Below, piece by piece: positions 54-35,300 of a stretch of 36,145 nt of DNA. A model generated the notes under the pieces. It was not told where the DNA came from. It was given only the letters and a program-made list of their open reading frames with translations, and searched no databases. The stretch is from assembly GCF_000003605.2 (NCBI RefSeq), contig NW_003122437.1:18883-55027 (forward strand), in the 5' to 3' direction. This stretch comes from Saccoglossus kowalevskii (lineage: Eukaryota > Hemichordata > Enteropneusta > Harrimaniidae). Within the stretch, counting starts at the first letter, position 1. Each line of letters starts with the position of its first letter. The position numbers were made by a program, and so were the translations under genes.

Positions 54-2235
54 TTCAGTGGTATTGTATAAGGATGGTTCGCCATGATCGTGTGCTTCGA
101 CTATCAGTTTATTCTCCTTTTGTGCACTTGTCAAACTAGAATCACCGACCCTGATTTCACCGGTCCACGTGTCTATCGTGAAATGATCACCTTCATCTGA
201 AATTTGACAGTATATGTACATATCACTACATGGTTGTATAGAAACAACATGTTTATAACGAGGCTATATTATAATTCATGGCAGAAAGATTCAACTTACA
301 GTCCTGAAATTGATATCGAATAAGAGAATTTTTGCCAGTGTCTTTATCCTCAGCTGTCACGTTCACTACAGAATCGTTCGTCTGCGCATTTGCTGATATT
401 TTCCTCCCGTAAGGCTCGCCAACAAAATACGGAGCATTATCATTGACGTCCGTTACATTAATATATACAGTAGTCGTTGAGTTTAATGGTACAATTCCCA
501 TATCCATCGCCATCACCGTCAACCGGTAGTATATTTTATGTTCATAATCGATATCGGCGCTACCAGCAGGAGTTATTATACCAGTATATTCTGAAATTTA
601 ATAAAAAATACACAAGTTACACATGACGATGCATCGTTATCATTAATACGTGCTATCAGTAAATACTGTTGAAATCACAATATACAAACAGCGAATAATC
701 TAATTGCTTAACCATTTAATACCTTAAACATATGGATAAGTGTTGTTGTTTTATACTGCACATTAATAAATACACTGGACTGTGATTCATCATGAACTGA
801 AAACTCTTGTAGCTCACATATTAGTATTCGTTCGACAAAGTAGAAATTCCCCAATACGTTTGTGCACTGATTGATACGTACAGTAACAATCACATTTGTT
901 TTAGTAGTTTTGATTTTACATTTAACGAATACTGTCGTGTGTCCGGCAAATGCATTTTTTCTAGTTTATGACGAATCCAATCTGATTAAAATCTGATGTA
1001 GTGTACGGGCTTTAATTATTTTGGCTATCAACTTATTTCATTTTATTTTTTATTACTTTTGTTATTAATGCCTTTTTATTTTATTATTTTACTTTGATTT
1101 TGTGATTTTTTTTTAATTCCGCCCTACCTACATCTGATCCGACGCCTACGTAAGTCCCGTTCAAATCTCGCGTAAGTAACAGCCAATCACAGCCCCCTTT
1201 TATACAGGCTGTCGGTTGCTTACTTTTCAGTGTAGCCAGGGTAGAGATACTCTACGGGCAATCTTTCGGTACATTATATTTTGCCCACTTGAATAAACCA
1301 TTAATAGAAAATTGCTAGTATATTTTTATTTACAAAAGAAATTCCACAGCATTTTACAATTTTTGTCATTACATTGAATATTGTTTTCACTTCCAACAAA
1401 TGTGTGATTGTGACGAATCGTAATCCGTTATACAGTATTGAATATCGAACCACAATATTAACAAATACATATTTGTAATGCAAACAGCTAGGACGTCAAT
1501 CCCATTACATTCTCAATACATCGCTTGTCAAGTTCTGAGTATAGATTTCTCTGGACATTTTCCTCTAAATCACACACCAAAATAAATAAATAAACTGCGA
1601 CTTAAATCTGGTAGCGTGCTTATTGTTTCTTCTTCTAAGCCCGAATCTGGCCGGTAATGTGGGGCGCTTACACTGATGGCAAGTCTGTTGGGATTTCGCG
1701 TTTACCCTTCGTTTACGCAATTTATATTTATTTTTCAAGCATTTTTCATCGGAATCGCAACAGGCTGCAATCAAGTCTAGATCTAGACATGCAACTGAAA
1801 GGGAGGCATAACATTATATCACGGGAGGGCAGGATGTATGCTTTTCAAATTATGCCAACACAATACAACACAACACAACGCGTGTCATGGGGTTGACCAC
1901 AGTATCACACATGTGTGCATTTTATCAACACCACACAGACCTGTTTTACAGTATTTTCCACATCAGAATACAATACAATGCAACGAATGTTTCTTACCAT
2001 CAATCTGAAAGTTTCCATCATTGCCATGTATTATACTATATGAGACGGTACCATTGTCTCCGAGATCAGAATCAGTTGCTAGCACAGCAACAATTGGGTC
2101 ATCATTGACGGTGTTTTCTTTAACTGTCCCATGATAACCGTCTTCACTGAATATTGGCGCATTGTCATTAACATCCAATACGTCGATGGTTACGGTAGCA
2201 GTGCTACTCAATGACAAGACACCATGGTCTGTTAC
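54..2235 (-). CDS. Cadherin exons 17-19: EC14 end, EC15, EC16 (runs off left edge)
   Basis: Exon 17 (2235-1998) carries VLDVNDNAP and the first half of EC15, ending in QID. Exon 18 (590-300) resumes with EYTGIITPAGSADIDYEHK, has VTDVNDNAP and starts EC16. Exon 19 (196-54) gives FTIDTWTGEIRVGDS and ends in YNTTE before a GTAAGA donor at 53. The next exon, expected to begin with the VxVxVLDxNDN strand, lies outside the window. EC16 begins with an unusual KISANAQTNDS in place of the usual xVxEN strand. Confidence 0.82.
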
Positions 2236-5200
2236 CTGTATAGTGTGTGAAGAATGAATAAACATCAGCGTACCATACCACTCATTGATTCATTCGCAAA
2301 AATAAATTAGTGTAAGTTGTTTCAATGGGTCTCCCAATTGTACGTGACTTATGTAGTATTCTATAGCTGGAGGTTGATGTCTATTTAAGCATGAAGAGAA
2401 GGAAAATTGGCCATATAATGACATTGATACAAATACCTGGTTATTAAAACCTTATTTTACGTGTAATAACTACTGTGAAAATATATATCTGATATTTTGT
2501 TTGAATTGAATATTACAAGAATATTATAATGCTTAGATATGCATATTGCATGTGTTTGCATATCTAGTGACAACTGCAAAACTAACTTGTTGTCATAAAT
2601 ATTTGGGCTGATATGGTCTTATAAACAATAACATGTTCTAAATACATCCATGGAATATATAGAATAAAGGATTGATTATGTAATCAGATTTACCATCACA
2701 GTAAGAATATAGGATTCTTTAGACTCTCTGTCAATGAAGCCAATTGCGTATATCGTTCCTTCAGTCTCGTCTATATAGAATATTTGTTCTTCAAATAAAA
2801 TAGACAAGTGTTATTTAACATGCTCGTCAACTACACACAAGAAATCGCGCATTGTACGGAACTACTACAGAAGTCATGTTGATCGATGTTATACCGTGTA
2901 TAAACACAATTAATGGATCGATTATTTCCGACAACGGATCATTGTGTTATCTTACCATTATTTCCATCACCGATTATTTCATATGAGACCTCGGCGTTGG
3001 TACCTGCATCCGCATCAGTGGCGGTGACCTGGCCAATCACTGTGTCTGAGGTACTCGTGTAGTCGTCTTCCACTACATACATTTGATATGGTAAGTCAAT
3101 AAATATTGGATGATTGTCATTGATATCTAGCACATATACCATTACCTAGAATAAAATAAATCTTAACTGTTATTAAAGTCCTGGAAAAATGTATGTATCT
3201 CCATATTTTGTCTCTAGTGCCATGTTTCGATGTACATTAAATTACATTACATTACATTACATTACATTACAACTAATAAACTAGTGACAGAATGTAACAC
3301 AATATTCACCGAGGTGTAAGCTGTTCGCTGCTGTGGCTCTCTTTCGGGATCACAATCTTGAGCTGCAACAGAAAAAGAATACCACTCTTTCTCTTCACGG
3401 TCTAGTGTCTCCATAGTAAAGATTTCACCCTGCAAAAAGAGTGCAATACATGGCTCCATATAAACGACCAATTCCGAGCAGACTTGTCTAAGGTATGGAA
3501 TATGGTATATATGGAAAAGTCCCATGCAATAAATAATGGAATTCCTGTACGAATTTTGCGGCATGCTAGACAATTTTTCTGACATGCACTACTGTGTATT
3601 TTTATGAATCGACTGGGAAAGAGGGGAGGCAGACTGTAAACATTATGATAATGATTGCATCCAAGAGCGGACAGAAATGTCGTCACCTGCGCATGCGCCA
3701 GATGGCCAGAACATGTTATAGTTTACAAACAAGCGTCCACCTACATCCTTTGCGTTTTTAACGTGTGTTGTTATCATCGCTTGGGATTCCCGCGCGTGCG
3801 CAGGTGACGATCCCTCGGCTTCAATTGGTGAATGCATGTGGATTGTCTTTCAAATGCTGGTCGGTATTTCCATAATCTTACAAGTAGAACAAGTAGAAGT
3901 ACAGTCACTTGGTCGGTTTTAATAGTTGTGTGTGTTTAATTGCTCAAAGGAGAATAGTAAATAAAAAACATATTATACTTACATTTGAATTTATGCTAAA
4001 TTCGTCCACTCTATGAGTGAATCTGTAGCATATATCGTCGTCATCGTTTCCCGCCGACACCGTTAGAACGTAAGCTCCAGGTTCTTGTTCTTCCACCACA
4101 CTTCCGTCATAATATGTCTGATTGAATTCTAAAGCGACATCGTTCGTTTTAGTCACTGTCACATTCACCTTCGCAGTGCCATTGAGCGGCGGGATACCGT
4201 GATCTTCGGCTACTGCGGTAAACTGCAGAGAGTGATATTCGTCGAGATAGTCTGCGTCATAATAGATTGGCCCCGTTAGCTGTATTAAACCTCTGTCATC
4301 AATAGCAAACAGATTTGTGGTGTTATCTGTAAGGTGGTAGGAGATGCGGCCATTTTCCCCGCTGTCTTCATCCGTAGCTGTTACGGTAAGTACCACATGC
4401 CCAGCACCCGTTCCATCCTCCACCGTGCCGTCGTATCGATCACTGGCGAACTCAGGTGAATTGTCATTGATATCTACAATGCTGATTATAACACTTGCTG
4501 TTGACGTATAATATGGAGGTCTATTGTCTTGGGTGTAAGCTGTAAAAGAGTATATTACGATATATAATGCCGTAGATTCAGTGAGTATTTTAGTATGTTC
4601 TCATGTTCGATTGCATTGTTTTATTTTCCCCGACTGAGATGAGCACATAAGTAATACATTATAAACTTACCATAAAAATCGTATCGCCTTCCATCTGGGT
4701 CTTCATAGTCAAGACATGAATATGTGAAGATTTCCCCTAAAGCAAATATTGAAAATATTACAGATTTTAAACCATACAAATTATAACTGCATAATAATGG
4801 AGGATAGCACACTGAAAACAGTAAGAATTATATATTATGAGTTACGATCATAGAACATAATGAAAAACATTGCGATCCTTGGGTATTAGGTGTTCAAAAG
4901 CAATACATTCGAACATTATTTTTTCAGAATTACGCAATCGTGCGTTCGGAACTATAATCTGTGTATCTATAACGCTTATGTTCTAGTTCTATGGACTTTT
5001 TTTACATAGCTGTTGATATTTTAAAGTAATTTCCATATCTCAGAATTACATTGACATAAAGTTGATAAGCACAATGGCATACTTATATTCGATTTCACAC
5101 AATTCCTTGGTATATCCCTTGGTTTATTGCCACAGTATGAGATACCCAATAGTCGTTACGTCGCATGTTAAAATGCACTGCGTGTTGACGTGACATTCCA

Positions 5201-8200
5201 ATACTTGTTTACCTGTATCCGGATTGATAACGAAATTAGTTGAGTTCAAACTATATGTTAGAAGACCATTATCGTTTTCATCCGGGTCCTCAGCCACCAC
5301 TCTCAGCACAAAAGTTCCGTTCTGCACTTCTTCCTCTTGATTTGCACGGTAGGTGGTTTCGCTGAATTGGGGAGCATTATCGTTTATGTCGATTAAGTCA
5401 ATTAATACCTCAGTGAAATCAATTCGCCCTGGAACCCCGTTGTCAGCTGAAATGTTCAGTTTATACGATGCTGTTTTCTCTCGATCAAGTTCACTTATCA
5501 CAGTCAGCTCTCCGGAGTATCGGTCTATTCTAAACTTACCCTCACTTCCATACACTATGGAATAGATAATTTTCGCGTTGTCTCCTTCATCCAAGTCAGT
5601 GGCGACTAAAGTATCTATCAGATACCCAGTTGTTATGTTTTCCTCAAATGAATACATGTATAACGAGTACTCGAACTGTGGATTGTTATCATTTACATCC
5701 AGAATATTGATAATCACTGTCGCAGTACTATTGAGACTGCCATCACCACCGCCACGGTCCGAGGCAGTGACGAAAAGTTCATATTGATCGTATCTCTCCC
5801 TATCAAGGTCCAGAATATCTGTATCATCTGTTGTTGTGATGACTGCTGTGCGACTGTCTATTTGAAACTGTTCGTGTCCAGGCCCATCCAAAGTGTAGAT
5901 GATTAGTTCATTGTAACCTTTATCTAAATCAGATGCTATGATTTCTTCAATCTATTGAAAAGACAATAAAACGTAAGTTGTTAGTTATGTGTTTGTGTAT
6001 GTGCTATAGTTGTGTGGAGGGCTGTACTTTTGTGTCAGTAATTAAATATTCTGTTTGGTATGTAGGAATGACAAATTTAAATCAATAACCATGAATACAC
6101 AGCAACATTGATATAGTTTATTTATGGACAGACAGGCAAACAATCAAAGCAAACTGTTGAAATACAACGATGCTCGTGCATTATTACGTCCCAACTATCA
6201 ACCACACTCTTTTTGGTATGCTCTTACCATCATCACGGTCGTGTCTGGAGGAGAATTCTCATCGATACTTCCTGAATATGGCTCTGTTTGAGAGAATTTT
6301 GGACTGTTATCATTTTCATCTAGTACGGTTATCAGTAATTCGGCAATCACCTGCAATGGATAAGCAAAATATATGTTGTTTTCAGGGAGATAAAAACAAA
6401 AGTATGAACCCACGACGCAGGTGCCCGTTTTTAACATACTTACAGGGTCAACAAGGCAAGCAGAATCTCCTTCTAGTTTTGCAACAACTTCATACCTATA
6501 TGTCTCTCGGGTTTCTCTGTCTAAAGGTTCCGTAGTTGTCACTACACCCTGTTAAAGGTTATACATATTACATTACATTAAAAAGTTATTTGTTCAAAAT
6601 GAAACATTTTTTTTCTGAAATAAAAAACATTTCAGTAGTAGTAAATTGCCAAATAATGATGTTTGTAGACATATTTGTGAATTCACATACGTTTCATTTT
6701 CAGTATTACATAGAAAATACCAACCAAATTGAAACAAAAAAGGTCGATTTTAACTCAGTCGATACATATAATATTGACTAGCGCAATGATATAGGTTAAT
6801 ATTGAATAACAACTTTGATGCTAAATGCCAAAATTAGTAAGACTGCGTTGATATATGTGTATATGTGATAATTGTCAGATTTAACATCTGTAATAATATA
6901 ATTAAACCATATATACATACAGTATAACTGTCGATATGAAATTGTTCCACATTGGACTGTGAGAAATCATAGATTATATCGTATCCTTCATAACCTTCAG
7001 CTTCCACATGTGTAACGTTTGTACCAGCGGGACTATTCTCCATTACTGTTGAGTTGTCGTACGTCCTACCACCGGGGTCAACTGTTGCCTCCATGATTGT
7101 TAATCGCACAGTGGCATCATTCAGTGAATACTCATACCCACCATCGCGAACTTCAATAATGATGTCAACGACTCCATTGACCACGTCTAATCCTGCGGTT
7201 ATCATGTCTGCGATAACAAGTTCTTGACTGTTCTTTAGAATGTTGAATTCCATGAAAAAATATGTGTGAGCAGGTTGTTGTACGATGTATGTCAGTGTAC
7301 TGTTGATGCCATAATCGGGGTCGCTTGCATGTACTACCGCTATTATACTGTCCGACGGCGTGTATTCTAACACTCCAACGAAGTAAGATGACGGGTTGAA
7401 CGAAGGTGCATTATCGTTGATGTCCAATACGTTGATATACACCGGTACGTACTTAGTAATAGCTGGACTACCAGAAACGATTTCTACAGTTAACATGATT
7501 GTCGCATTCGTCTCTCGGTCTACGCTATCATCGACCGTACGTATTACCCCATCATCATCCACCCAAAATAACTCACTTGCAGATTCTTCCAGAATGTCAT
7601 AACTTGGATTGGTCATAGCAGATGCTTCGTCAGATACATCTCCTACCACAGTGTTTGCTGGTGAATGTTCAACCACTTTAAATTTGTACCAAAAGCTGCC
7701 ACACCATGATGCGTTGGACACGCATGAAGAATTCGTATTGTCTGAAAAATAATACAACAGATAATGTATATTGCAATGTACAATGATAATTATCAGCCAT
7801 AAATTGAGTATAGTTACATATCGTGTACCAACAACAACTCTTGGCGAAATCGTGAAATTCCGTGTGAAACGTCAAAATCATAATGTGTTACTTGTAACAA
7901 TAATAGGATGAGCTAGACTTAGGTTTGGAAATGAAATGTTAGCGTACAACTCGTTGGTTTCATGTGTACAATATGCCCGTTTTTCATGTTTTGGGGGAGT
8001 TTAATTGTAGTATAGAACCTAATACATGTATATAGCAGTACAATGTCGAATGCGTATTAATCATATTAATAATAATTCTCTTAATACGCACCCACGTTCT
8101 TGAATATGACATATATGTTTGTAGAACTTTGACGAGATGGTGTTCCATTATCCTGACAAACAACTGAAAATTGTAATGAGTCATCAGGTCCAAGCACGTC

Positions 8201-11200
8201 CTCAAGATCGTCATAAGTTACATCATCCGTCAAATACACAACCCCTTTGTAATCAACGCTGAAAAAATCTGTGGTATTTTCTGTCATGTAGTAGAATATA
8301 TTTCCGTTATCGCCAGAGTCAAGGTCAAAAGCATGTGTTACAACAACGGGTGAATAAGCTAGTGTCCCATCCATTATTGTACCATTGTATTGGGTGTGGG
8401 TAAACGTTGGGGAGTTATCATTAACGTCCAGGATTTGTATTACAACAGATGCCGATGACGTATGAGAGGGTATTCCGTTGTCTCTACCTTCAACTGAAAT
8501 GATAAATCAAGGTAAATAGCAGTTATGTGTTTTGTTGCTGACTTGAGAGTTCAAATCACGTATTTTATTTTTATACGTTCGTATATAAACTTGTAATTAA
8601 CGACTAAATAACATGTAACATGTACCGTGATAGATATGCGTGAGTCATTTATCTACATGTTTAGCATAACTGATGTAAGCAATCAACCCATATAATTAGC
8701 ACCATGATAAATTAATTAATAGTTGCTTTTGACAAATACTATGAAATGAAACTTTATTTGTGACTTTATGGGTAGCGCTAATTTAACTTACCCATAAATT
8801 CATGCGTTCTGTCGTCATGGTTTTCATAATCAAACATGCGATTAGTGTATATTTCACCTATGAGAACATAATTGTGTACTGGTTTAGCACTGAAAATCGT
8901 TTCATTGTGTACATGCGCGGTTTTCATGTGTTTCTCGCGTAAAATTAATAACTGAGATATACTTCATATTGATATCATCTGATATCTCTCTACCCAATCA
9001 AATAATGATAATCTCACCTGTAATTCCATTAATTGTGAAATCATTTGTGTCTATCGTATAAGTAATATTCCCATTCATTCCGGAATCAGCATCATTGGCT
9101 GTAACAGATAATACGTAACTTCCAATGCTGAGATCTTCTTGAACACTGTTAGTGTACACTTCTTGTGAAAATACCGGAATATTATCATTGATATCTGTTA
9201 TGTGTATAATAACGGTGGTATTTGTCTCTAAGATTGGATCACCGCCATCAATTGCAATGATGTTCAAATTATATGAAAATCTGACTTCACGATCCAACTC
9301 CCCTGAGACATATAACGCACCGCTGTACCTATCTATTTTAAAGTCCCCATGGTCACCATTTTCTAGGTAATAAATCACTCTTCCATTTATGCCATCATCG
9401 TCGTCCACAGCTGATAAAATATCTAGATTGTAGCCTAATTCCGTGTCTTCTGCAAGTATGTAATTATATTCAGACTGCTCAAAAACTGGTGCATTATCAT
9501 TGACGTCACTGATTTGAATAACAACGGACGAGTTACTTTCTCGGCTTCCATACTCCCCATTGCAATCTTTAGCCGTCACTGTGAGATGGAATGTTGTATT
9601 CATTTCATAATCTAAGTTTATGTGACTTGTGGTTATTTCTCCCGTGAACTGATCTATGTGAAACATCTCGCTACCTTCGCCGGTTAAGGAATATACTATT
9701 GATGCATGTAACCGATCATCCTTATCCGTTGCAAGTATGGGTGGAAACTAGAATGAAAAAATAATAATATGAGGTCTGAATATAAGATGAGCTTTCTGTA
9801 AAGTATGCACGGACGATGTACAACGATCGAACGAAGCGGAGAACAATTTCGGTTTAAATCAACTCAACCTACCATGATAACTTCGGTGTAATCGGGAGAA
9901 TTTTCATCGACAGACCCAACATATATTTCACTAGTAAAATTAGGGGAATTGTCATTAACATCCAAAACGGTAATCAGCAATTCTTCGGCAACCTGAAAGT
10001 TCATTACAGTTTTGCGTAATATTAGTTTGCATTACAATTTACTTTACTGGAAGGAACAAATACATGAATAACCTAATTACGATTTCGCTGAAACCCTAGT
10101 CTTGAAACAATACGTTATGTTGATGAACTACTGACCGGTAAATTGAAGCATTTAGTTTCATCTGCAATATATCCAACAACAGCATAGTGAAACAAGTCGC
10201 GGGATTCTCTATCCAATGGCAATAATGTTGTTACAGTACCCTATAAATACAAACAACTACTATATTACTAATATTGTTAATCAAATTAGCATACATAATA
10301 ATTACATTATATATTCTTCTCTGACTAGTATGTGACTTATATATTGCTAGTTCACGGAATTGTGTTCACTTACATTTATATCAATAGCGAAATGTTCAAC
10401 ACGTCCAGCAAATTCATATATGACGTCATATTCTGAATACAATTCAGTTGATAATAGGACAGTTACAAATGTACCATAGGGTTCATTTTCATAAACAAAA
10501 ACGTTTTGGAAAGTTGCATTCTCATAGCCAGAAACCACTTCACATGGTGGGGCATATATGTTTGTAGAAAATTGTGTTTCTGTTGTTGGTGCATCGGTAG
10601 TAGTCTCCGAGGTTGAGTCAGCGGTGGTGTCCAGTGACGTTGTGATACTTGTTGTAGGTTCATCAGTGGTAGCTTCGGAGGTTGGTTCAGCGGTGGTGTC
10701 CAGTGACGTTGTGATACTTGTTGTAGGCTCATCAGTGGTAGCTTCCGAGGTTGAGTCAGCGGTGGTGTCCAGTGGCGTTGTGATACTTGTTGTAGGTTTA
10801 TCAGTGGTAGCTTCCGAGGTTGGTTCAGCGGTGGTGTCCAGTGACGTTGTGATACTTGTTGTAGGTTCATCAGTGGTAGCTTCCGAGGTTGAGTCAGCGG
10901 TGGTGTCCAGTGACGTTGTGATACTTGTTGTAGGTTCATCAGTGGTAGTTTCCCCGGTTGAGTCAGTGGTTGTGTCCAATGAAGTTGTGATTATTGTTGT
11001 AGGTTCTTCAGTGGTAGTCTCCGTAGTTAATTTTGTGGTAGTGTCCAATGAAGTTGTGAGATCTGTTGTAGATTCTTCAGTGGTAGTATCCAATGATGTT
11101 GTGAGATCTGTTGTAGATTCTTCAGTGGTAGTCTCCGTAGTTAATTCAGTGGTAGTGTCCAATGAAGTTGTGAGATCTGTTGTAGGTTCTTCAGGGGTAG

Positions 11201-12201
11201 TTTCTGTGATTGATTCAATGGTAGTGTCCAATGATGTTGTGAGATCTGTTGTAGGTTCTTCAGTGGTAATCTTCGTAGTTAATTCAGTGGTAGTATCCAA
11301 TGATGTTGTGAGATCTGTTGTAGATTCTTCAGTGGTAGTCTCCGTAGTTAATTCAGTGGTAGTGTCCAATGAGGTTGTGAGATCTGTTGTAGATTCTTCA
11401 GTGGTAATCTCCGTAGTTGATTCAATGGTAGTATCCAATGAAGTTGTGAGATCTGTTGTAGATTTTTCAGTAGTAGTCTCCGTAGTTAATTCAGTGGTAA
11501 TATCCAATGAAGTTGTGAGATCTGTTGTAGATTCTTCAGTGGTAATCTCCGTAGTTAATTCAGTGGTAGTGTCCAATAAAGTTGTGAGATCTGTTGTAGA
11601 TTCTTCAGTCGTAGTCTCCGTAGTTGATTCAGTGGTAGTATCCAATGAAGTTGTGAGATCTGTTGTAGATTCTTCAGTGGTAGTCTCCGTAGTTAATTCA
11701 GTGGTAGTGTTCAATAAAGTTGTGAGATCTGTTGTAGATTCTTCAGTAGTAATCTCCGTAGTTGATTCAGTGTTAGTATCCAATGAAGTTGTGAGATATG
11801 TTGTAGATTCTTCAGTTGTAGTCTCCGTAGTTGATTCAGTGGTAGTATGCAATGAGGTTGTGAGATCTGTTGTAGTTTCTTCAGTGGTAATCTCCGTAGT
11901 TAATTCAGTGATAGTATCCAATGAAGTTGTGAGATCTGTTGTAGGTTCTTCGGTGGATGAAATAATTCCTGAGGTTTGTGAAAAAAAATAAACATTAGTG
12001 GTCATGTGATCAGACGATGGTCAGGCGATTAGTGAAGCATTAGCTTTGAGCAAATTATGTATCTTACGTATTGTCTTTGATATGACTATAATTAGGCAAT
12101 GAAGTTTATATCTGATTAAAATGCTTATATTTAAATAATGTGTTACCTGGAATAATCCATATGCTAATTAGGATGATAATAATCTTCAGATTCGTACCCA
12201 T
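54..12201 (-). CDS. Giant cadherin with N-terminal mucin-like tract (19 exons, 3' end beyond window)
   Basis: Exons joined by GT-AG sites with matching phases, in transcript order: 12201-12147, 11968-10374, 10240-10136, 9992-9873, 9747-9018, 8857-8792, 8493-8092, 7741-6921, 6548-6444, 6350-6228, 5951-5213, 4736-4671, 4539-3983, 3429-3310, 3145-2956, 2788-2694, 2235-1998, 590-300, 196-54. They sum to exactly 2,187 codons. The product starts with a signal peptide, then a Thr-rich repeat (about residues 23-480), then about 16 EC repeats recognised by the calcium-binding DxNDNxP linker, DRE/LDRE and DxDxGxN motifs. No transmembrane segment or cytoplasmic tail is seen; these should lie left of position 1. 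The family mediates calcium-dependent adhesion at the cell surface. EC number is in the range of Fat, Dachsous or CDH23-like proteins, but I cannot assign an orthologue. Exon 19's donor was chosen because the paralogous next exon (exon 15) resumes with a Val-rich strand before LDIND. Confidence 0.9.
591..1997 (-). other. Cadherin intron 17, with a promoter-like island
   Basis: This 1.4-kb intron has no coding signal. At about 1110-1300 there is a GC-richer island with a CCAAT box (1183-1187), a TTTATA element (1198-1204) and an AATAAA (1292-1297) in order on the plus strand. That order and spacing resembles a solo LTR fossil, but I could not define its ends or terminal duplication. The rest is AT-rich and featureless. 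Confidence 0.3.
2694..3429 (-). CDS. Cadherin exons 14-16: EC13 end and EC14
   Basis: Exons 14 (3429-3310), 15 (3145-2956) and 16 (2788-2694) complete EC13 (METLDREEKEWYSFSVAA, VLDINDNHP) and give most of EC14 (DADAGTNAEVSYEI, then FYIDETEGTIYA and DRESKESY). Exon 14 occupies the same position as exons 3 and 9, but is 120 nt and lacks the closer similarity of that pair. Exon 16 starts after a TTTGAAG acceptor, which is weaker than its neighbours; phase and reading frame support it. Confidence 0.82.
3241..3270. repeat. (ATTAC)6 microsatellite
   Basis: Six perfect copies of the pentamer attac lie in the cadherin intron between exons 14 and 15. No function is implied. Confidence 0.95.
3680..3810. 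repeat. Inverted repeat with 19-bp GC-rich arms
   Basis: The left arm (3680-3698, tcgtcacctgcgcatgcgc) and right arm (3792-3810, gcgcgtgcgcaggtgacga) are reverse complements with one mismatch, 93 nt apart, inside cadherin intron 13. The arms contain TGCGCATGCGC, which matches the NRF-1 binding consensus. It could be a short MITE-like element or a paired regulatory site. Confidence 0.6.
3983..6548 (-). CDS. Cadherin exons 9-13: second five-EC block (rest of EC8 to EC12, start of EC13)
   Basis: Exons 9-13 are 105, 123, 739, 66 and 557 nt with the same phases as exons 3-7 for the first four. The linkers are VLDENDNSP (EC8), ILDVNDNNP (EC9), LIDINDNAP (EC10) and IVDINDNSP (EC11). EC12 ends in VTKTNDVALE, again a degenerate linker in the same place as EC5. 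Exon 9 resembles exon 3 (TTTEPLDRETRETYRYEVV against TTLLPLDRESRDLFHYAVV). Exon 13 also carries the start of EC13 through to FSINSN. Confidence 0.88.
6921..7741 (-). CDS. Cadherin exon 8: EC6, EC7 and start of EC8
   Basis: The 821-nt exon opens with a two-cysteine stretch (SSCVSNASWCGSFWYKF), then EC6 with a full VLDINDNAP linker. EC7 follows and ends in LTIMEATVDPGGR without the calcium motif. The first third of EC8 (TVMENSPAGTNV to VEQFHIDSYT) closes the exon. EC6 and EC7 have no counterpart between EC12 and EC13, so they are the part of the seven-EC period that was lost, or never copied, in the second unit. The donor is GTATGT at 6920. Confidence 0.88.
8092..10240 (-). CDS. Cadherin exons 3-7: first five-EC block (rest of EC1 to EC5)
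   Basis: Exons 3-7 are 105, 120, 730, 66 and 402 nt with phases 0, 0, 1, 1, 1 at their 3' ends. They encode the LDRES half of EC1 and its VLDVNDNSP linker, EC2 (ISDVNDNAP), EC3 (ITDINDNIP), EC4 (ILDVNDNSP) and EC5. EC5 ends in IYVIFKNVDNTN, with no DxNDN motif, so the linker to EC6 probably cannot hold the usual three calcium ions. The 66-nt exon 6 holds only the middle strand of EC4 (GEIYTNRMFDYEN). Confidence 0.88.
10374..11968 (-). CDS. Cadherin exon 2: Thr-rich mucin-like tract plus start of EC1
   Basis: This 1,595-nt exon is by far the largest of the gene. The acceptor (tract of T then CAAACCTCAG) ends at 11969 and the GTAAGT donor begins at 10373. It encodes about 460 residues of Thr/Ser/Glu/Asp-rich repeats. 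After these comes a 63-residue segment with one cysteine (APPCEVV) and the strand ending VEHFAIDIN. That last segment matches the 3' end of exon 8 (VEQFHIDSYT), so EC1 begins here. The Thr-rich part has no cysteines and reads as an extended, probably O-glycosylated stalk or brush. Confidence 0.85.
10580..11955 (-). repeat. Coding minisatellite of 69-nt (23-aa) units, about 20 copies
   Basis: By eye there are about 20 tandem units. The first 14, nearest the signal peptide, follow a TTDLTTSLDTTTELTTE then TTTEES pattern. The last six follow a TTSITTSLDTTADSTSE then ATTDEP pattern. One unit (the 13th) is shortened to 15 residues. In the last group ADS and AEP units alternate, which gives a 138-nt higher-order period, a sign of recent unequal exchange. 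Frame is kept throughout. Confidence 0.9.
12147..12201 (-). CDS. Cadherin exon 1: start codon and signal peptide
   Basis: The ATG at 12201-12199 sits in a strong Kozak context (ACCATGG). It opens MGTNLKIIIILISIWIIP, a short polar start followed by an uninterrupted hydrophobic core, typical of a secretory signal peptide. The exon ends in CCAG before a GTAACA donor at 12146 and leaves a phase-1 junction that joins cleanly to the acceptor at 11969. An ATG nine bases upstream is out of frame with the cadherin. The transcription start was not located. Confidence 0.85.
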
Positions 12202-18974: not shown

Positions 18975-19192
18975 TCAAGCATGTCTCATTGGCGGGACAC
19001 ATGTGGCCTGGACTGTAAAGTCTACGTAGGTGACTTGGGATCTGGGGCAGCTAAACATGAACTAGAAAGAGCTTTCAGTCACTATGGGCCGTTGCGCAAT
19101 GTCTGGGTTGCAAGGAACCCGCCTGGTTTTGCATTTGTAGAGTTTGAAGACCCAAGAGATGCAAGTGATTCAGTTAGAGGACTGGATGGAAG
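18975..19192 (+). CDS. SRSF3: SRSF3 coding exon 1: start and most of the RRM
   Basis: The acceptor (tttttttcttctag) ends at 18974 and the ATG is at 18981-18983. The exon encodes residues 1-70 plus two bases of Arg71, covering beta-1 to alpha-2 of the RRM. The donor is GTGAGA at 19193. Confidence 0.93.
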
Positions 19193-22100
19193 GTGAGATA
19201 AATGTTGTAATTATGTGAGTTGTAGTTATCTAAACTGGAGCTGGTCTTGTACAATGTATGTCTGTAGGAGCTGCTAATTGATAACAAAATTGATTGACTA
19301 TTTTTAGGCAGATTTGTATTTTTACAAAGCTAGAGCGTAAAGAAGTTGTTGTATGTTTAAAATTATTGCCAAACTTGCAAATGCTAGATCATATGACATA
19401 TGTCTGTATTTTCATTTAAACAAAAAATGTATCACTGTTTATTAAATTAACCAAAAATTTATTCATGCACAAAAAAAAATTTCCATTTGTATCCTATTCT
19501 TATAAAATTCATTCTCTATTTTTACTACCTGGAATCACATTTTTATATTAGGTCTATCAAAATAATTTCATGCCCATGAAGTCTTGCAGAGGCTTCTATT
19601 CGTTTTGATGTTCCTGCAGTATTATTTACTTGCATCACATGGGTTAACTATTACAGGGTTATATGCGGAAGGCGTGTCAGAGTTGAGCAATCTAGTGGTA
19701 AGAGCAGAAGGCCTCGATACAGAGAGAGGGGACCTCCCCCACCACCACGTAGAAGTCATTATGATGATCGTGATTATGACCGCCGACCCAGCAGAAGGTA
19801 TGTGTTTATGTAATGGAACTGTGTAAATTTTTCTTCCTCAGAGCTTAAAAAGTCTAGAAATGAAGTCTGTTATCATTGTCATTTCATATTTTATTTTTAA
19901 TTTCAATATTTTTTATATAAATTGCTAATACAATGATTTGATTTTGTTTTTCTATTGTACATAAAAACAGTCAAATAATGCTTTCCTGAATTAAAAATTG
20001 TATATGCCTAATTTGTTGGCATGCCATGAACTAAAATAATCATTGCTTTATAAGCGCATGATGTTCAGTTTTCACTATGTTGTTTTAGTCTACGTCCCTC
20101 ATGACATTACAGGAGTACCATGTTTTTTTACATCACTAATCAACACTTTATTTGGATTTTTTTTTTCAATGTCTTGCACGTGTGAAACTGGCATATTCAT
20201 AAAATTTAAAAAATCAAAATTCCACATTTTTTAAGCTGAAACATTTTTTTTTAATTTGTGTGCATAATGTTTAACTGCTGTTTCCTTACATCAATGTAGA
20301 TCATTAATTGATTATGTTTTGCTTGTGCACGTTGATAATAGGGATGTAAGGTTGCTATTGTTATCATGTGTTTATATTTTGGAATAATGACTTGGGTGCA
20401 CACCTTTGCAGGGTCTATAGCCCCTCCTACAGCCCAACAATCAACAACTACTAGTGCATCTACAACTAGTTCATGCTGTACAACTTCTGCAATGTCAAAA
20501 ATCCGTTCAACTCGACCTTCAACATGAACTCCTTCGGCCCAACATCAATCAGTTATCATCACCTCAACCAACACCACCTACATCAGTTGGCAACAACATC
20601 ATGCAACATTTCTGAGCATGCCTAGCGATCGTGCAACAGGCCACCGCCACACAACTACGACTACAATCAACGTTATATTATTTAACAACTCCAGCCCTTC
20701 AACAACTACCACCATCACCACCACCACAACTTTTCAATTTATTATCAACACTGCTGGCCTTATTGTCATTGTAAGGCTCAATGTTTTGACCTCTTAAAGA
20801 TGTTTTCTGCACAGCGTTTCAAGTCAGGTAGGAGGCGATACAAAGCCATGTAATTGCAAATAGGTTTTATCCTCTAACAAAAAACAATTAATTAAAAACA
20901 AGTTGTCTGGTGTTGAGTAGTTTTACGCCATTCTGAAGACTTATTTGATATAACCTCACTCAGTGTTTGCTAAAACTGTTCGACGCTTGAATATATAATT
21001 GCTGTTAAAATCTGGTATACTCGTATTTAGTTCATCTGTCAATGTACTGTTGCAGTTCTGTATACGAGGTCCAAATGCGAATTAGTTTAATTGAGTTTAA
21101 CACTTGTTACTTTTTCCTTGGACATTGCTGAAGGTGATAGACTTGTCTACATGCAGTGTTCTCCCCAGGACCATTCAGCATCGTTGTTATCATTTGAAGT
21201 GGTCTATTTTTTATGGACATTACATGTGTCAGAATGATAGTACCATAAAATTTTCAAATAGGCCCCAGCATAATTTGAAATAAATTTCCAAATTAAAATC
21301 CTAGATTGACTATTGAAGTTATTCTTATAAACAAACTCCCGAATGCTCAAAAAGTATGTAAATAAGTTGTACCCGGTACATGTAATTTGTGTATGCAATG
21401 AAGTAATAATCATACCAAGGAAAAACAAAGCATATTAACAATGGAGGAGAATAACTAGTTTGAGATATAAAACAATTTTGTTTTTGATAGCATAGTTATA
21501 CATGCAAACATCAAAGTTGAATTCTTGGGAAAACTAGTCTGATTTTGTTTTTAAATCACCTCAAAATAAAATGATCAAAAATCAACTTAAACAACACAAA
21601 GAAATCAAACAAACTACATATCCTGATGCAAAGATTCCTGAAAAAAAGCACATTCAAGAGTTTGACAAAACTTTAGTTAAAATACATGTGTACATTACAC
21701 TTACTATAAAAAAAAATTGAATGATATTCAACGAAACTCTTGAAATGTAAATCACCAATGAAAGTAAAAAGGTATATTCAGTATCTTTGCTATGAATAAC
21801 ATAATCTAATAAAACATGTTCTAATTTACAAATTTGAAAGTATGCAATACATTTTTGCCTGGGGGGAACACTGTCACAAGAATGAAGGAGTAACAACACA
21901 ACAGCGTACAAATTGCATGTGTATGCATTTCAAATAAAGATCAAAATTTTCATATAGTTCTTGGTATTTCAACCGTGGATAATAATAAAAACTATTGTCT
22001 CTCCCCGGTTATACAAATATTGTTGCAATCTGCTTAAGCATCAGTGCTTCATTGATTTTAGCTCAGAAGTGTAAACCATATAAAAAAACTTGATTTGTAT

Positions 22101-24867
22101 TACTTTTATTGACTTGCTATTATTTACTTCAGGTCACCCAGACGATCTTATTCTCGATCGCCACCTCCTCGTCGATCTTCTGGTGGTAAATATAGTAGAA
22201 GTCGTAGCAGAAGTGGAAGCAGGTATGTATTTTTAGTCGCTGTTTGAATGCAGTCTAAAGACTTAACAGTTTGACCTTTGTGCATTTGAACATGCCTCAG
22301 CCAATGACATACAAAATTCACACGTGTATATATTGGGATATATGTGCATATCCATTTGATTCGTGATCAACTAATGGCCATTTTTTTTTAAATGAATGTG
22401 TTTCTGGTACTGTATCTGTACTGCCTTGACCATGTACAAACTTTGTATATACATGTACATCTTGTCTTGCATATGCACATGTATTTGTTTGACCATCAGA
22501 CTCGGGATGGCGACACCATTTTAATGTAAATTAATCAACATATTTCGGTCATACATGACCTCCGGAGTTGTATCTTGAAAACCTACTTATTGTTAATGCC
22601 TAATGCATAGATAGCCGACTAGTGACCATTTTTGTTGTCAAAATATCTAATTTTATGGTATGTCAAAAACTAGTTCTTGGGCGTATGTTGGCTGATTTAC
22701 TTGAAATATGGTGGAAGGATTAACCATTATGGGTACAAGCATAGTTAATGCATGCCACTTTGTAAATTTGATGCAGAATGGCAGACTGGCTGCCCATTTT
22801 GTTTTAGACAAGTTCTATTTTAGACATGTGTCTGGCACACGCTTTGAGCAATTAATTAACTTCAAACTTGTACATACAGTACATCATAAAATGCATTCGC
22901 ACATACAGTAATTTCGTCATCTGATCAAAGTGGTTTAAAAATGTACTAAAATCAGGTATATTTCTGTGTACGTAACTAGATCTCGGTGTTGACCGATTTG
23001 CTTCAAACTACAGGGAAGGGTTAACCATTATGGATAGTTGATGCACACCACTTTGATTTTGCAAACTTGACTCGAAATGGCCGACTAGTGGCCACTTATT
23101 TTTGACAAATTCTATTCCATACAGACATGTATATTCCAGACATGCTTTGAGAAACTCGCTTCAAATTTTATGCCTTAGAATGTTCATCATGGCACATGCA
23201 CCAGCATACAATGTTGTCTGTAATATGATGGCGAACTGCCAACTCTTGGGTATTTTGACCACCAGATCTTAGGCATGTGGTGCTTGATTTTCTTCAAACC
23301 ATTACTGCAGGTGGATGCATGTCACTTTGATTTGTCAAGTCTACACAAGATGGCTGTCTCAATCCATTTATTATTTTACTCGAGTAAATATTGAAACATC
23401 ATATGCTTTTTGCATATGCGCAATTTTTAAAGCTATAAAATTGCAATGTAAAAAATTTCACAAGCGCAGGGCTAGGAGCTAAAGTACGTGCACTTGCTGT
23501 TGACATTTTTTTTCTTGCTATAAACAAGATATCATTGTAGCATGCATAGCATGTGTATCTCCATAGTGAAAAAATACCATGAGATGCAGGTTTTCACTCA
23601 GCTGTTATATTCTACGTCACACTCCAAAACTACTATTACGATAGAATTCTATATATTTTTTTTGGTCTTTATATTTATTACGGTAGGGAATGTGAATTGC
23701 AAAATACTTGTATTTGTAATTTTTAGATGCGTGCATTGTTGTTTATTCTAGTTTAATATGACTTTAATATATGGGCTTGTTGGTTTATTTTCGTAGGTCA
23801 TTTTCTGCCAAGAATACAAGCCGCTCTATGTCTGGTGAGAGAAGACGCTCATACTCACGAGAACGCCTTTCTCCTGAAAAAAGGTAAACATGTAATAATC
23901 TGGCAGATAATTATTTCCACACATCTTTAGTTGAGTATGCCATGGTTAAATTGATTTAAGTTAATGTTTAGTGGAATCATTAGGAGTCAAATGCATACAC
24001 GTGTTAGTACCTGCATATTGCTACCTGTGATTAGAGTGATTGTAATCAATTTTTACTATGCAAAATGAATCAAACATTTGATTGTGCAATATTTCTCGTT
24101 GCTATAGGTGATTTTCATGTTGATTTATATGTATCAAACTAAAATAAACCATTGTAAGCCATAACAGGTCATGAAATTAATCCCAAAATGAATCGCATTT
24201 TTACTATGCTAATAATAGTTAAATATTTGAGATTCAAAATTTGGTTAAAGAATAGCTAGCTTATTTTAAAGGCAATAAATTGGGGCCTACATGTAGAGCA
24301 TTCTCCAGAATGCTGTGGTGACCTCTGGTGACGTCACCAGGAAAATACTTGTTAGTATGCAAATGAGGAATATATATAAACTGATAATATTCACATACTA
24401 GCAAGTGATTTTGGACATCATGGTAGTAAGCAATTCAAGGCACTTTAAGAGCATGTGCTATAACTTACAGAGCAAATACACATTACACATGTTAACTACA
24501 TTAGAAGCACACCTCAATGAAAAACCTAAGTCAGAAATATTTTCTTTTAATTTTTTAATAACCTACACTGTTTAAGGTTATTTGCTATAGAGCATTATTC
24601 TCTGAGAATGAAACTTTGCTATTTAATACACCCACTTCTCAGTATATCTAATGCAGTAACCAGTGTCGTTCAATGATCACTTCAAACTTGTGTTCCATTA
24701 TACAAGTTTGTATTCTTAGACAAATACTCTGGTACATGTATTGCAGTTTTCAAATCAAATTATGCTATCTTGTTATTTTCAGTCGCACTCCAACGCCGGA
24801 ACCTGATGGAAGTAGGAATGGTGATCAATCAGACATCGAAGCTTCTGGTTCAGCCGAAGAGGACTAG
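18981..24867 (+). CDS. SRSF3: SR splicing factor SRSF3/Rbp1-type (five coding exons, 204 aa)
   Basis: Coding exons 18981-19192, 19657-19797, 22133-22222, 23797-23883 and 24783-24867 join in phase 2 at every junction and total 205 codons with the TAG stop. Residues 13-80 form one RRM with RNP2 VYVGDL (14-19) and RNP1 GFAFVEFE (49-56). The stretch [19 protein letters not shown] is nearly identical to human SRSF3 as I recall it. After [10 protein letters not shown] comes an Arg/Ser-rich tail ([25 protein letters not shown]) and an acidic end ([11 protein letters not shown]). There is no CCHC zinc knuckle, which argues for SRSF3 rather than SRSF7. The protein binds pyrimidine-rich RNA and acts in splicing and mRNA export in the nucleus. 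At 204 aa it is longer than human SRSF3 (164 aa), mainly in the tail, and the acidic C-terminus differs. Confidence 0.93.
19657..19797 (+). CDS. SRSF3: SRSF3 coding exon 2: end of RRM and linker
   Basis: It completes the RRM ([17 protein letters not shown]) and begins the basic linker with a run of five prolines ([19 protein letters not shown]). The proline/arginine stretch matches where SRSF3 contacts its export partner in the known family. The donor is GTATGT at 19798. Confidence 0.92.
20412..20770 (+). other. SRSF3: Candidate poison exon in SRSF3 intron 2
   Basis: A 359-nt segment is bounded by an acceptor (cacacctttgcag, ends 20411) and a GTAAGG donor at 20771. Spliced in phase 2 after coding exon 2, it reads [14 protein letters not shown] then TAG at 20452-20454. 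The stop lies more than 300 nt before the exon end, and the exon length is not a multiple of three. It is strikingly A/C-rich in a T-rich intron, with over 20 WCWWC motifs by eye (ACAAC, TCAAC, ACATC, ACTAC), the motif selected by the SRSF3 RRM. Inclusion should give a nonsense-mediated-decay target or a truncated RRM-only protein. Mammalian SRSF3 autoregulates through its own poison exon. It could also be an alternative last exon; no transcript evidence is available here. Confidence 0.55.
22133..22222 (+). CDS. SRSF3: SRSF3 coding exon 3: RS domain, first part
   Basis: This 90-nt, phase 2-2 exon encodes [17 protein letters not shown] then [14 protein letters not shown], the densest Arg-Ser dipeptide stretch of the protein. 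Such repeats are phosphorylated by SR protein kinases in the known family. Skipping it would keep the frame. Confidence 0.92.
22500..23360. repeat. Four diverged tandem copies of a roughly 280-nt repeat
   Basis: Inside SRSF3 intron 3, blocks starting near 22500, 22650, 22950 and 23245 share ordered motifs. These are a ggttaaccattatgg stretch, a gatgcatgccactttg stretch, an aaatggccgactagtggcc stretch and a gacaaattctatt stretch. Copies are old and incomplete. The atggcc/ggcca palindrome is typical of dispersed invertebrate repeats. No coding capacity is seen. Confidence 0.55.
23797..23883 (+). CDS. SRSF3: SRSF3 coding exon 4: RS domain, second part
   Basis: The 87-nt exon encodes [19 protein letters not shown] and then [10 protein letters not shown]. 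It is phase 2 at both ends, with a tcgtag acceptor (ends 23796) and a GTAAAC donor at 23884. Confidence 0.92.
24783..24867 (+). CDS. SRSF3: SRSF3 coding exon 5: acidic C-terminus and stop
   Basis: It encodes [18 protein letters not shown] and ends [10 protein letters not shown] before TAG (24865-24867). The acceptor (tgttattttcag) ends at 24782. The acidic end without RS dipeptides differs from the vertebrate SRSF3 tail. Confidence 0.92.
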
Positions 24868-32300: not shown

Positions 32301-35300
32301 TTAAAAAACAATTCATTAAAATGTTTAAAATTGTACACCAACCAACAGAATGGTGGTGAAAAATTCTGGTGCTCGAAGGGTTAACTGACAAATATTGAAG
32401 ATTAAATAATCCACAAACGAGTGCCAGAGATTAATATACATGAAATATCTTTTATAATAATGCAAATAGATATATAACTTGTTGAACATTGTGAGGGATA
32501 AAGAACTTTGAAATTGTATTGAATTATACTCACCATATATTTTTTTCGTTCAATTAATAAACTTATCAGACCCTGTATAAGAACCAACACTCATGTTAAT
32601 TAAAAAAACTTTACAACAAAAATGGCCACTAGTCAACCATAATGAATCATACTAGACAAAATTGTTCAAATAAATAATGTACTTGTCTGCACAAAAGATG
32701 CATGCAAGCACTTTAGTCAGAGATCAGAATCCAGACAAAATCCAAGTATAACTACATGCCCAAGATCTAACTTCAGAGCAGTAGAACAGTTTGCTTTTTG
32801 CTTATCAGCCATCTTGAATAAGAATTTAACACAAGATGCACTGAAGTAAATTTATTAGTTTTTGGTCTTCATCTAAACAGGGACTAATAGCAAGTTATAT
32901 GTTATCATGCCACGTTCTATGCTTGTTGAAGTATTAGTAAAAGAAATGATAAGCCAGAAAGTGTTAATACTGTGGGTTTAAATTTCGCTTATTTACCATT
33001 TTAGGCATATTCAGTGGGTTTTAAATTCACGGTTTGTTCATTTAGATAATGTGTTCTATGCTAAATTTTACATATTCACTGGGTTTTTATTCAGCGCATT
33101 TTCCAGTCAGCGAAATAAGCAAAATTAAAACGCAGTGAATAATTAATCCCTTTACAGTAATTAATGACGATACAAGAAAATTTGTGTCTACTTACCATAT
33201 GATGATCCGCATGTAAATGAGAAATATATATACATTGTATTCGTTGCATTATATCTAGGGTTTGGTTGCCATAGTGACGAAACAGCTGTCCAAAAGTCCC
33301 TTCTCCACAGTCCATTAAAACAGATGTATCATTACTGCAATGTAAATAGTGATAGTGATGTCATGGACAAAAAATATAAATCAAAGATGAATTAGAAAGG
33401 TATATGTACCAAGTTTTATTGGAATGCACAGATTGATGAGGTTCTTCACCCATTAAATGCCACCGAGTCTGACCACCTAAAATCAAAACTGAACCAAGAA
33501 GTAGAAAACACAGGACAACAATAGGAGAGTAAGCAGCATTCAAACACTCTGAGTCCTTTCAGAATTGTAAATAATTTCATATATCTCGCCACTTACTTCA
33601 TATTAAGCAGTATTGAACTAACATTTCTTGCGTTGCTAGGCATTGCTGATCCCGTACCGAAAAATACAACTTCTGGATATTTCACTGAAGTTACAATATT
33701 ATCTACTTCACTAGTTGTTTCTGAATCATTAGGTTCAGTGACATTATTACTCGCTGACTCTACACAATTAGTCCTTTGCATTTCAGTTTTTACTGTGTCA
33801 CTCTCATCAGTACCAGTAAGCTCACTAGTATTAGAAGAGTTGACATGATGTGAAAGAGTTTTCCTGAGATCTTTGAGTTTTTCTGTAAATCCTGGTATCA
33901 TGTGGACATCTTTTTCGATTTGTTCTCTTGTTACAGTTGGAATTCCACTTCTAAGATGACAATTGAAACATGTGTAGATGATTATTATGTTCATGGCAAA
34001 GTAATCTAGCAGTATTTCTCTATTGTTCTTTTATGTTGAGCTCTGTGATACCATGTTTACCAAGGGTATACATCTACTGTACAATTTAAATACAGGCTGA
34101 ATATCTACAATTGTAACAATTATAGTACTGTTTATTTAAATACAGATATTAACTGATGAAGATGCATGACAAATTACACAAACTCGCATGTATTGTACAA
34201 TACATGACAGTTTCCATTCCCACACACTAGTGTCATAAGATCTGTATTAGAAGCTCCATCCAGTATTTTTGAGCAATTGAAAACCAAAAATTCACTTGTT
34301 TTCACATGCTTAAATGCTCCAATAGAAGCTATATCCCAATGTTCTAATACTGATTATATAGTGCTGTCAATATATCAACTGACAGTTGTTATAGCAGTGA
34401 AAGTGTGGCCATCACATTCTTAATGACATTGCATTTGATTTACATGGTTATTAATAGCGAAAATATTCAGAATACAGTGGAGAGTGAGTAACTAGTGGAT
34501 TTAATACCCAGGCTTATATTCAGTGTCCTTAAGCAAGGAGCTACCTTTAGTAAAATAGATTTCTAGAATGATGCTAAGAAATCATACCTGTCCCATCTGC
34601 TATGTGGTCTCAGGTGATATTTCATTAAACATTCTGCCTTTGTTATAAGACCATTGTCAACTTTCATTTCACTCTGTAACTAGAGAAATACAACTTCAGT
34701 GTAATGTGCTGCTGTATTACAGGGTCATGGGCTCCTATTACATTCACTTCCTTTTACTTTTATTCATAGTTATTATATACGATATATATACGATAATAAT
34801 AAGGAAAAAGATATATAAGTTGTACTTCTAATTTCCATATATGAAATATATGTAAACTTTCATACATCACCTGCTGAAAGCCTACACATATAGCCTATAT
34901 GAATGGCATGTAATGGCATCAGGAAGTGAATTGTTGGTAAGTACCAGGACAGTTTTCTGTGGTACTTGGGCAATATATTGTATTATTATACATCTGTCAC
35001 TGTAACGCCATAACTTACAGCACGCAGTAATTTTGCGGTATCACACAGGGTATTTTAATCCTACCATATTAGGAAATGCGAATTCCAAATATGAAATGAT
35101 TACGTGCATAAACGTCCTCTAATAATAAAAACAAACATGGCTGCCACAAGGGTTTGACTGGACTCCACACAAAGAAGTTTGCTGATTCTGTTCCAAACTT
35201 TTTGGATTTCGGCATTCCCATGATGTATCCTTGGAAGGAAAAGATGTATAATAATAAGGTTATTACGAGGATACCTCAAAGTATGCACTCGGACAGTACG

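Follow-up and report, generated by a model that had tools for sequence, protein, structure and literature searches.

A candidate self-regulating poison exon in an SRSF3/7-type SR protein gene of the hemichordate Saccoglossus kowalevskii

Does the SRSF3-like gene of Saccoglossus kowalevskii carry, as its mammalian counterparts do, an exon through which the protein limits its own level? In passages of two papers on the mouse and human genes, SRSF3 binds exon 4 of its own transcript at CAUC-like and CNNC sites and promotes its inclusion; overexpression of SRSF3 raises inclusion of the exon in a minigene, and transcripts that include it undergo degradation (PMC3439968, PMC10321290). The window analysed here is a stretch of 36,145 nucleotides (RefSeq assembly GCF_000003605.2, contig NW_003122437.1, positions 18,883 to 55,027 of the forward strand), and positions are counted from its first letter. 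A preliminary description of this DNA had proposed a self-regulating poison exon at 20412-20770, within an intron of what it called the SRSF3 gene.

The predicted gene is, by homology, an SRSF3/7-type SR gene. Translation of its five coding exon parts (Table 1) gives a product of 204 amino acids in which a single RRM is followed by an RS tail. The N-terminal RRM is of the SRSF3/7 type, the best PDB matches of the product being SRSF3 (6.3e-45) and SRSF7 (1.5e-39), with a Pfam match to RRM_1 (7.7e-16); the C-terminal RS domain is read from exons 22133-24867. The RRM is identical at 63/84 residues to that of human SRSF3 and at 63/80 to that of human SRSF7 (9G8), a paralogue whose intron 3 contains a poison cassette exon subject to AS-NMD and likewise promoted by SRSF3 (in the passages concerned of PMC3091714 and PMC3439968). 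The CCHC zinc knuckle, a point of difference from SRSF7, was sought as C-x2-C-x3-5-H-x3-5-C and is absent from all six frames of the window, a search that an intron-split knuckle would escape; a zinc-knuckle exon concealed within an intron was rejected on the same result. Since the pattern is missing, the gene is SRSF3-like by build, so that the name SRSF3 suits its architecture, although the RRM, equally close to both human proteins, does not separate SRSF3 from SRSF7.

A search of the 572-Mb genome with the product gave eight matches (17 candidates scored), of which five fall on the exons of this gene itself. Next in rank comes a gene on contig C767 (40 identities in 76 aligned residues), which we take to resemble fly Rsf1, and the remaining two are weak. 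The UPF1 zinc-binding domain was also found in the genome, in two pieces.

Table 1. Coordinates of the SR gene and of the candidate exon features in the window
Feature	Position	Strand	Basis
First coding exon part, ATG and most of RRM	18981..19192	+	Translation, genome protein search; acceptor 18974
Second coding exon, RRM end and linker, ends in phase 2 (..PSR + AG)	19657..19797	+	Translation, genome protein search
Highest-scoring C-rich island of intron	20399..20759	+	C-only segmentation
Candidate poison cassette exon, long form, 416 nt	20412..20827	+	Top-ranked AG-GT pair of 2475; predicted splice use
Candidate poison cassette exon, short form (preliminary description), 359 nt	20412..20770	+	AG-GT pair tied at ranks 8-9 of 2475
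In-frame premature stop TAG, 13 residues past junction arginine	20452..20454	+	Translation
Third coding exon, start of RS domain (SPRRSYSRS..)	22133..22222	+	Translation, genome protein search
Fourth coding exon, RS domain	23797..23883	+	Translation, genome protein search
Last coding part, normal stop TAG 24865-24867	24783..24867	+	Translation, genome protein search

The candidate exon lies in the intron between the second and third coding exons (19798-22132; 2,335 nt). The upstream exon ends in AG, and the first G of the candidate exon completes an arginine codon; translation onward confirms that a stop is reached in frame after 13 codons. This TAG stands 316 or 373 nt upstream of the end of the candidate exon, depending on its form, and has three junctions downstream; both distances exceed the approximately 50 nt upstream of a junction beyond which, by the usual rule, a stop elicits nonsense-mediated decay (NMD). 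The two exon lengths, 359 and 416, are equal modulo 3, and both therefore break the frame. The predicted product of inclusion has 131 amino acids and no RS domain.

In base composition the segment 20412-20770 is rich in C and A and poor in G (A 0.32, C 0.33, G 0.11, T 0.25), whereas the remainder of the intron has A 0.34, C 0.15, G 0.15 and T 0.36, in agreement with its description as an A/C-rich segment in a T-rich intron. The C-rich island begins within 13 nt of the first base of the exon, and thus takes in the C-rich end of the acceptor itself (CACACCTTTGCAG). Segmentation on full composition gives 20399-20730, the composition is intron-like again beyond about 20760, and the best donor of the intron is located 68 nt past the island. 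The genome search, which skips simple repeats, placed the segment at a single position, and tandem repetition within it amounts to 20 nt of ACC; a repeat origin was rejected on these two grounds. A coding function was likewise rejected, stops being present in all three frames and none of the three read-outs belonging to a Pfam family. The fold energy of the segment is ordinary (z 0.39, 59/100 shuffles as stable), and no Rfam family matched at gathering score within the window.

Splice sites were scored with a metazoan matrix that is not fitted to this genome. The acceptor 20411|20412 scores 9.1, third among the 91 AGs of the intron and above all five acceptors of the gene itself (4.9-7.5). The donor 20771 (ATT|GTAAGG) reaches 5.2, tied for fourth and fifth place among 127 GTs and below the four coding-part donors of the gene (6.9-10.9), so that of the "good splice sites" claimed for the exon the acceptor deserves the name, while the statement on the donor calls for amendment. 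The best of the 127 GTs is donor 20828 (CAG|GTAGGA), 57 nt past 20771, which scores 9.6 and is about level with the gene's own donors. An exon of 416 nt is for this reason at least as likely as one of 359 nt, and the 3' end is probably 20827, or else both ends are used. Competition between the two donors does count against a poison exon. When AGs and GTs were paired at 30-600 nt spacing, giving 2,475 pairs in the intron, the pair bounding the long form came first with a score of 18.6; the antisense strand of the same intron has a pair at 18.9, and 2 of 60 mononucleotide shuffles reach 18.6. Since pairs as good occur in antisense and shuffled sequence, site strength by itself proves little, and we regard these scores as supportive, not decisive.

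The motif WCWWC occurs 25 times on the sense strand of 20412-20770, where more than 20 copies had been reported, and not once on the antisense strand. Exact shuffles of the segment, 4000 each, were made preserving mono-, di- or trinucleotides. The mononucleotide and dinucleotide sets average 6.9 and 9.6 copies and never reach 25 (0/4000 each), whereas the trinucleotide set averages 20.6 and reaches 25 with P 0.057; the count is thus in excess of the first two expectations and falls just short of exceeding the third. CNNC, a weaker and more general preference of SRSF3 than WCWWC, occurs 68 times against 48.4 in trinucleotide shuffles (0/4000). Five SRSF3 iCLIP pentamers, taken from a table in PMC10321290, total 16 against 6.7 in dinucleotide shuffles (P 0.0018) and 13.7 in trinucleotide shuffles (P 0.24). 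That trinucleotide shuffles account for most of the WCWWC motifs and of the pentamers argues against a poison exon. Since these shuffles retain most of any CNNC/WCWWC-type signal, we take the dinucleotide shuffles as the fairer test. The excess remains when the ACC run is left out (20412-20685: 19 WCWWC, 7.0 expected). When 104 patterns built from W, C and N were scanned, CWWCW came first (33 versus 10.8) and WCWWC sixth; the longer SELEX-type SRSF3 motif CTCKTCY has no copy in the segment, which counts against the proposed self-binding. Period-3 structure is strong (lag-3 identity 0.419 versus 0.282), and 17/25 WCWWC share one phase, though every frame has stops. Such structure would be expected from CNNC spacing, and equally from decayed coding or triplet sequence.

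The density of WCWWC is 69.6 per kb in the segment and 8.1 per kb in each of the two flanking intron pieces. For a genomic background we used 29 loci with RRM matches (39 loci less 7 of this gene and 3 duplicates), scanned on both strands in 8,224 overlapping 359-nt frames, some of the 29 loci overlapping slightly. The mean was 3.0 WCWWC per frame, the maximum 13, and none of the 8,224 had 25. On the plus strand of the longer pieces the peaks were 8 for SRSF1, 7 for SRSF2 and 10 for the C767 paralogue. CNNC density is less distinctive, at least 68 being found in 22/8,224 frames, in three loci. Nor is the WCWWC density unique in the window, where a minus-strand coding repeat rich in Thr (about 10.4-12 kb) reaches 36 per 359 nt.

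This repeat belongs to a 557-amino-acid open frame (10347-12020, minus strand) of Thr/Ser/Glu-rich repeats, with the highest WCWWC density of the window on its strand. It probably forms a mucin-like portion of one gene with a series of exons at 253-9747, also on the minus strand, which read by eye like cadherin repeats (DxNDNAP motifs) and are probably those of a protocadherin. Open frames at 33091-34030, also on the minus strand, have an SHLHADH motif and resemble, again by eye, an RNase Z (ELAC2-type) metallo-hydrolase. Elsewhere in the assembly, contig C4830 (L043, L044) is mitochondrial, with 17,037 bases and tRNA genes. Its COX1 has seven internal TGA codons, TGA being read as Trp; of the nine ATA codons of COX1 covered by the PDB alignment, five stand opposite I in the best-hit chain, two opposite V and one each opposite L and M, so that ATA is read as Ile. 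AAA is presumably Lys, as in a GKKE motif, and AGA/AGG are nearly absent from the recognisable genes. The gene order, recognised by eye, is the vertebrate-like ATP6-COX3-ND3-ND4L-ND4-ND5-CYTB, with COX1 on the opposite strand to ATP6-ND5-CYTB. Together with this order and the tRNA genes, the codon assignments hint, with little weight, at a hemichordate-like deuterostome.

The position of the host intron can be compared with that in the human gene through the protein. Here the intron splits the product at PSRR|SPRR, after PSR-AG|G. In human SRSF3 the published junction into exon 4 reads PRRR|VTIMSLLTTL, and the PDB alignment of the full-length protein gives PRRR|SPRR; the antibody peptide for the truncated human protein, as quoted in a passage of PMC10592454, is PRRRVTIMSLLTTL, with a neo-peptide of 10 amino acids. 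The correspondence of PSRR|SPRR with PRRR|SPRR assigns the candidate, by protein position, to the intron that holds exon 4 in human. The preliminary description had spoken of a comparable place after the RRM, which is correct as to place and understated, the intron being the same one as in mammals. Exon 4 of the vertebrate gene (SRp20) belongs to the same subfamily and interrupts the protein at the same place (after ..RR, before SPRR), breaks the frame and has SRSF3-type motifs (passages of PMC10592454, PMC10134197, PMC10321290). By comparison, it has 456 nt in human and also in mouse (359 or 416 here), a human product of 124 amino acids, according to a passage of PMC10134197, and a stop 10 codons in (13 here). 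The peptide read from it is unrelated to the one here, the first V alone being common to the two.

On this evidence the segment is likely to be an autoregulatory poison cassette exon of the SR gene, since an RRM of the same type, together with an early stop and a CWWC array in the same intron, is explained most simply by the same feedback as in mammals. At low levels of the SR protein the exon would be skipped, 19797 being joined to 22133, and the 204-amino-acid protein made. When it is plentiful, its RRM would bind the dense CWWC/WCWWC array, and the bound array would bring about inclusion of 20412 to 20827 and/or 20770. Translation would then stop at 20452 after 131 amino acids, before the RS domain, and the mRNA with its truncated frame would be removed by NMD. 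The protein thus probably limits its own level as in people. Frame, early stop, motif excess and homologous intron all fit what was first proposed, which is amended in its 3' end, probably 20827, and in a place that is not merely comparable.

Three other readings must be weighed against this. It is unlikely, in our view, that there is no exon and that a decayed trinucleotide-rich or coding-like-derived stretch stands by chance near splice-like sites. The splice-pair scores near chance level, the period-3 structure with its good fit to trinucleotide shuffles, and a Thr-rich coding repeat that surpasses the segment in WCWWC would all suit such an origin. Against it, tandem repetition is detectable over 20 nt only, the segment is single-copy in the genome search, and its three read-outs lack a Pfam family; the island, moreover, starts 13 nt before the exon so as to include the acceptor end, the best donor of the intron follows 68 nt after it, and the whole falls in the very intron where mammals have their poison exon.

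The second reading may be approached through the C767 paralogue, which has an intron at the same protein position (IRRR|SPP, phase 2), so that the intron site seems old. In this intron (L004 1998-3135) read-through meets a stop at once, and some 780 nt follow that are richer in C than the rest, with an AATAAA near their end. A motif-rich poison exon was considered there and rejected: WCWWC reaches at most 10 per 359 nt in the C-rich stretch, and the immediate stop and the AATAAA make an alternative 3' end the likelier reading. If our segment were of the same kind it would be a real exon, but an alternative last exon formed by intronic polyadenylation and encoding a stable 131-amino-acid protein without RS domain, not an NMD target. 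Besides the paralogue, an ATTAAA at 20891 (64 nt past 20827), an AATAAA at 21279 and the single early-polyadenylated SRSF5 transcripts in frog and zebrafish that a passage of PMC4379411 describes are in keeping with this. We nevertheless hold it to be quite unlikely, since eight AATAAA/ATTAAA are spread across 2.3 kb of an AT-rich intron, where such signals are expected by chance, and since the composition returns to that of the intron beyond about 20760 and a strong donor follows.

Lastly, the poison exon might be driven mainly by other CA/CU-binding proteins (e.g. a YB-1-like or another SR protein) and not by its own product. Among 21 motif sets of RNA-binding proteins the SRSF3 sets CNNC, WCWWC and iCLIP are first, second and third in enrichment and far ahead of the YBX1-like HCAYC in fourth place (13 versus 8.2, 40/1000 shuffles), with NOVA YCAY, hnRNP L and PTB at or under expectation, so that cross-regulation is very unlikely, even though the HCAYC count speaks for it and passages of PMC10321290 have several other factors acting on mammalian SRSF3 exon 4.

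An autoregulatory poison exon in this gene would have relatives. SRSF3, Srsf3, fly Rbp1 and worm rsp-6, of the same gene family as the gene described here, appear together in a table of AS-NMD genes conserved across Metazoa (Table 5 of PMC8652244). With AS-NMD of this family already listed outside the vertebrates, the candidate joins a known kind. Feedback of fly Rbp1/Rbp1-like is reportedly the subject of one published study. Judged by title and abstract, no paper listed in searches of the open-licence PMC literature describes a poison exon of SRSF3 type in a mollusc or in a deuterostome other than a vertebrate. Passages of PMC4379411 and PMC11357089 describe ancient poison exons in SRSF5/B52 and Smndc1, where poison-exon autoregulation has been retained at one intron over very distant lineages. 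They are a likeness in this respect, but other genes, and their conservation is shown by transcripts. Most human SR poison exons are said, in a passage of PMC4379411, to be of independent origin.

Whether the SRSF3-type poison exon is ancestral, occupying the same intron since before the split from vertebrates, can be put forward tentatively, as a possibility rather short of an even chance. Selection would then have kept the design, with CWWC sites arrayed past an early stop to bind the RRM of the protein itself, and not the letters. Few noncoding sequences known are as conserved as the poison exons of vertebrate SR genes. A motif-packed candidate in the identical SRSF3 intron of an invertebrate raises the question of whether position and motif content, not sequence, are what is inherited. 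The candidate exon also offers a compact natural test of the number of binding sites that a feedback exon needs. If the ancestral reading is true, the ultraconservation seen in vertebrates would reflect the late fixation of a device that is old and flexible in sequence.
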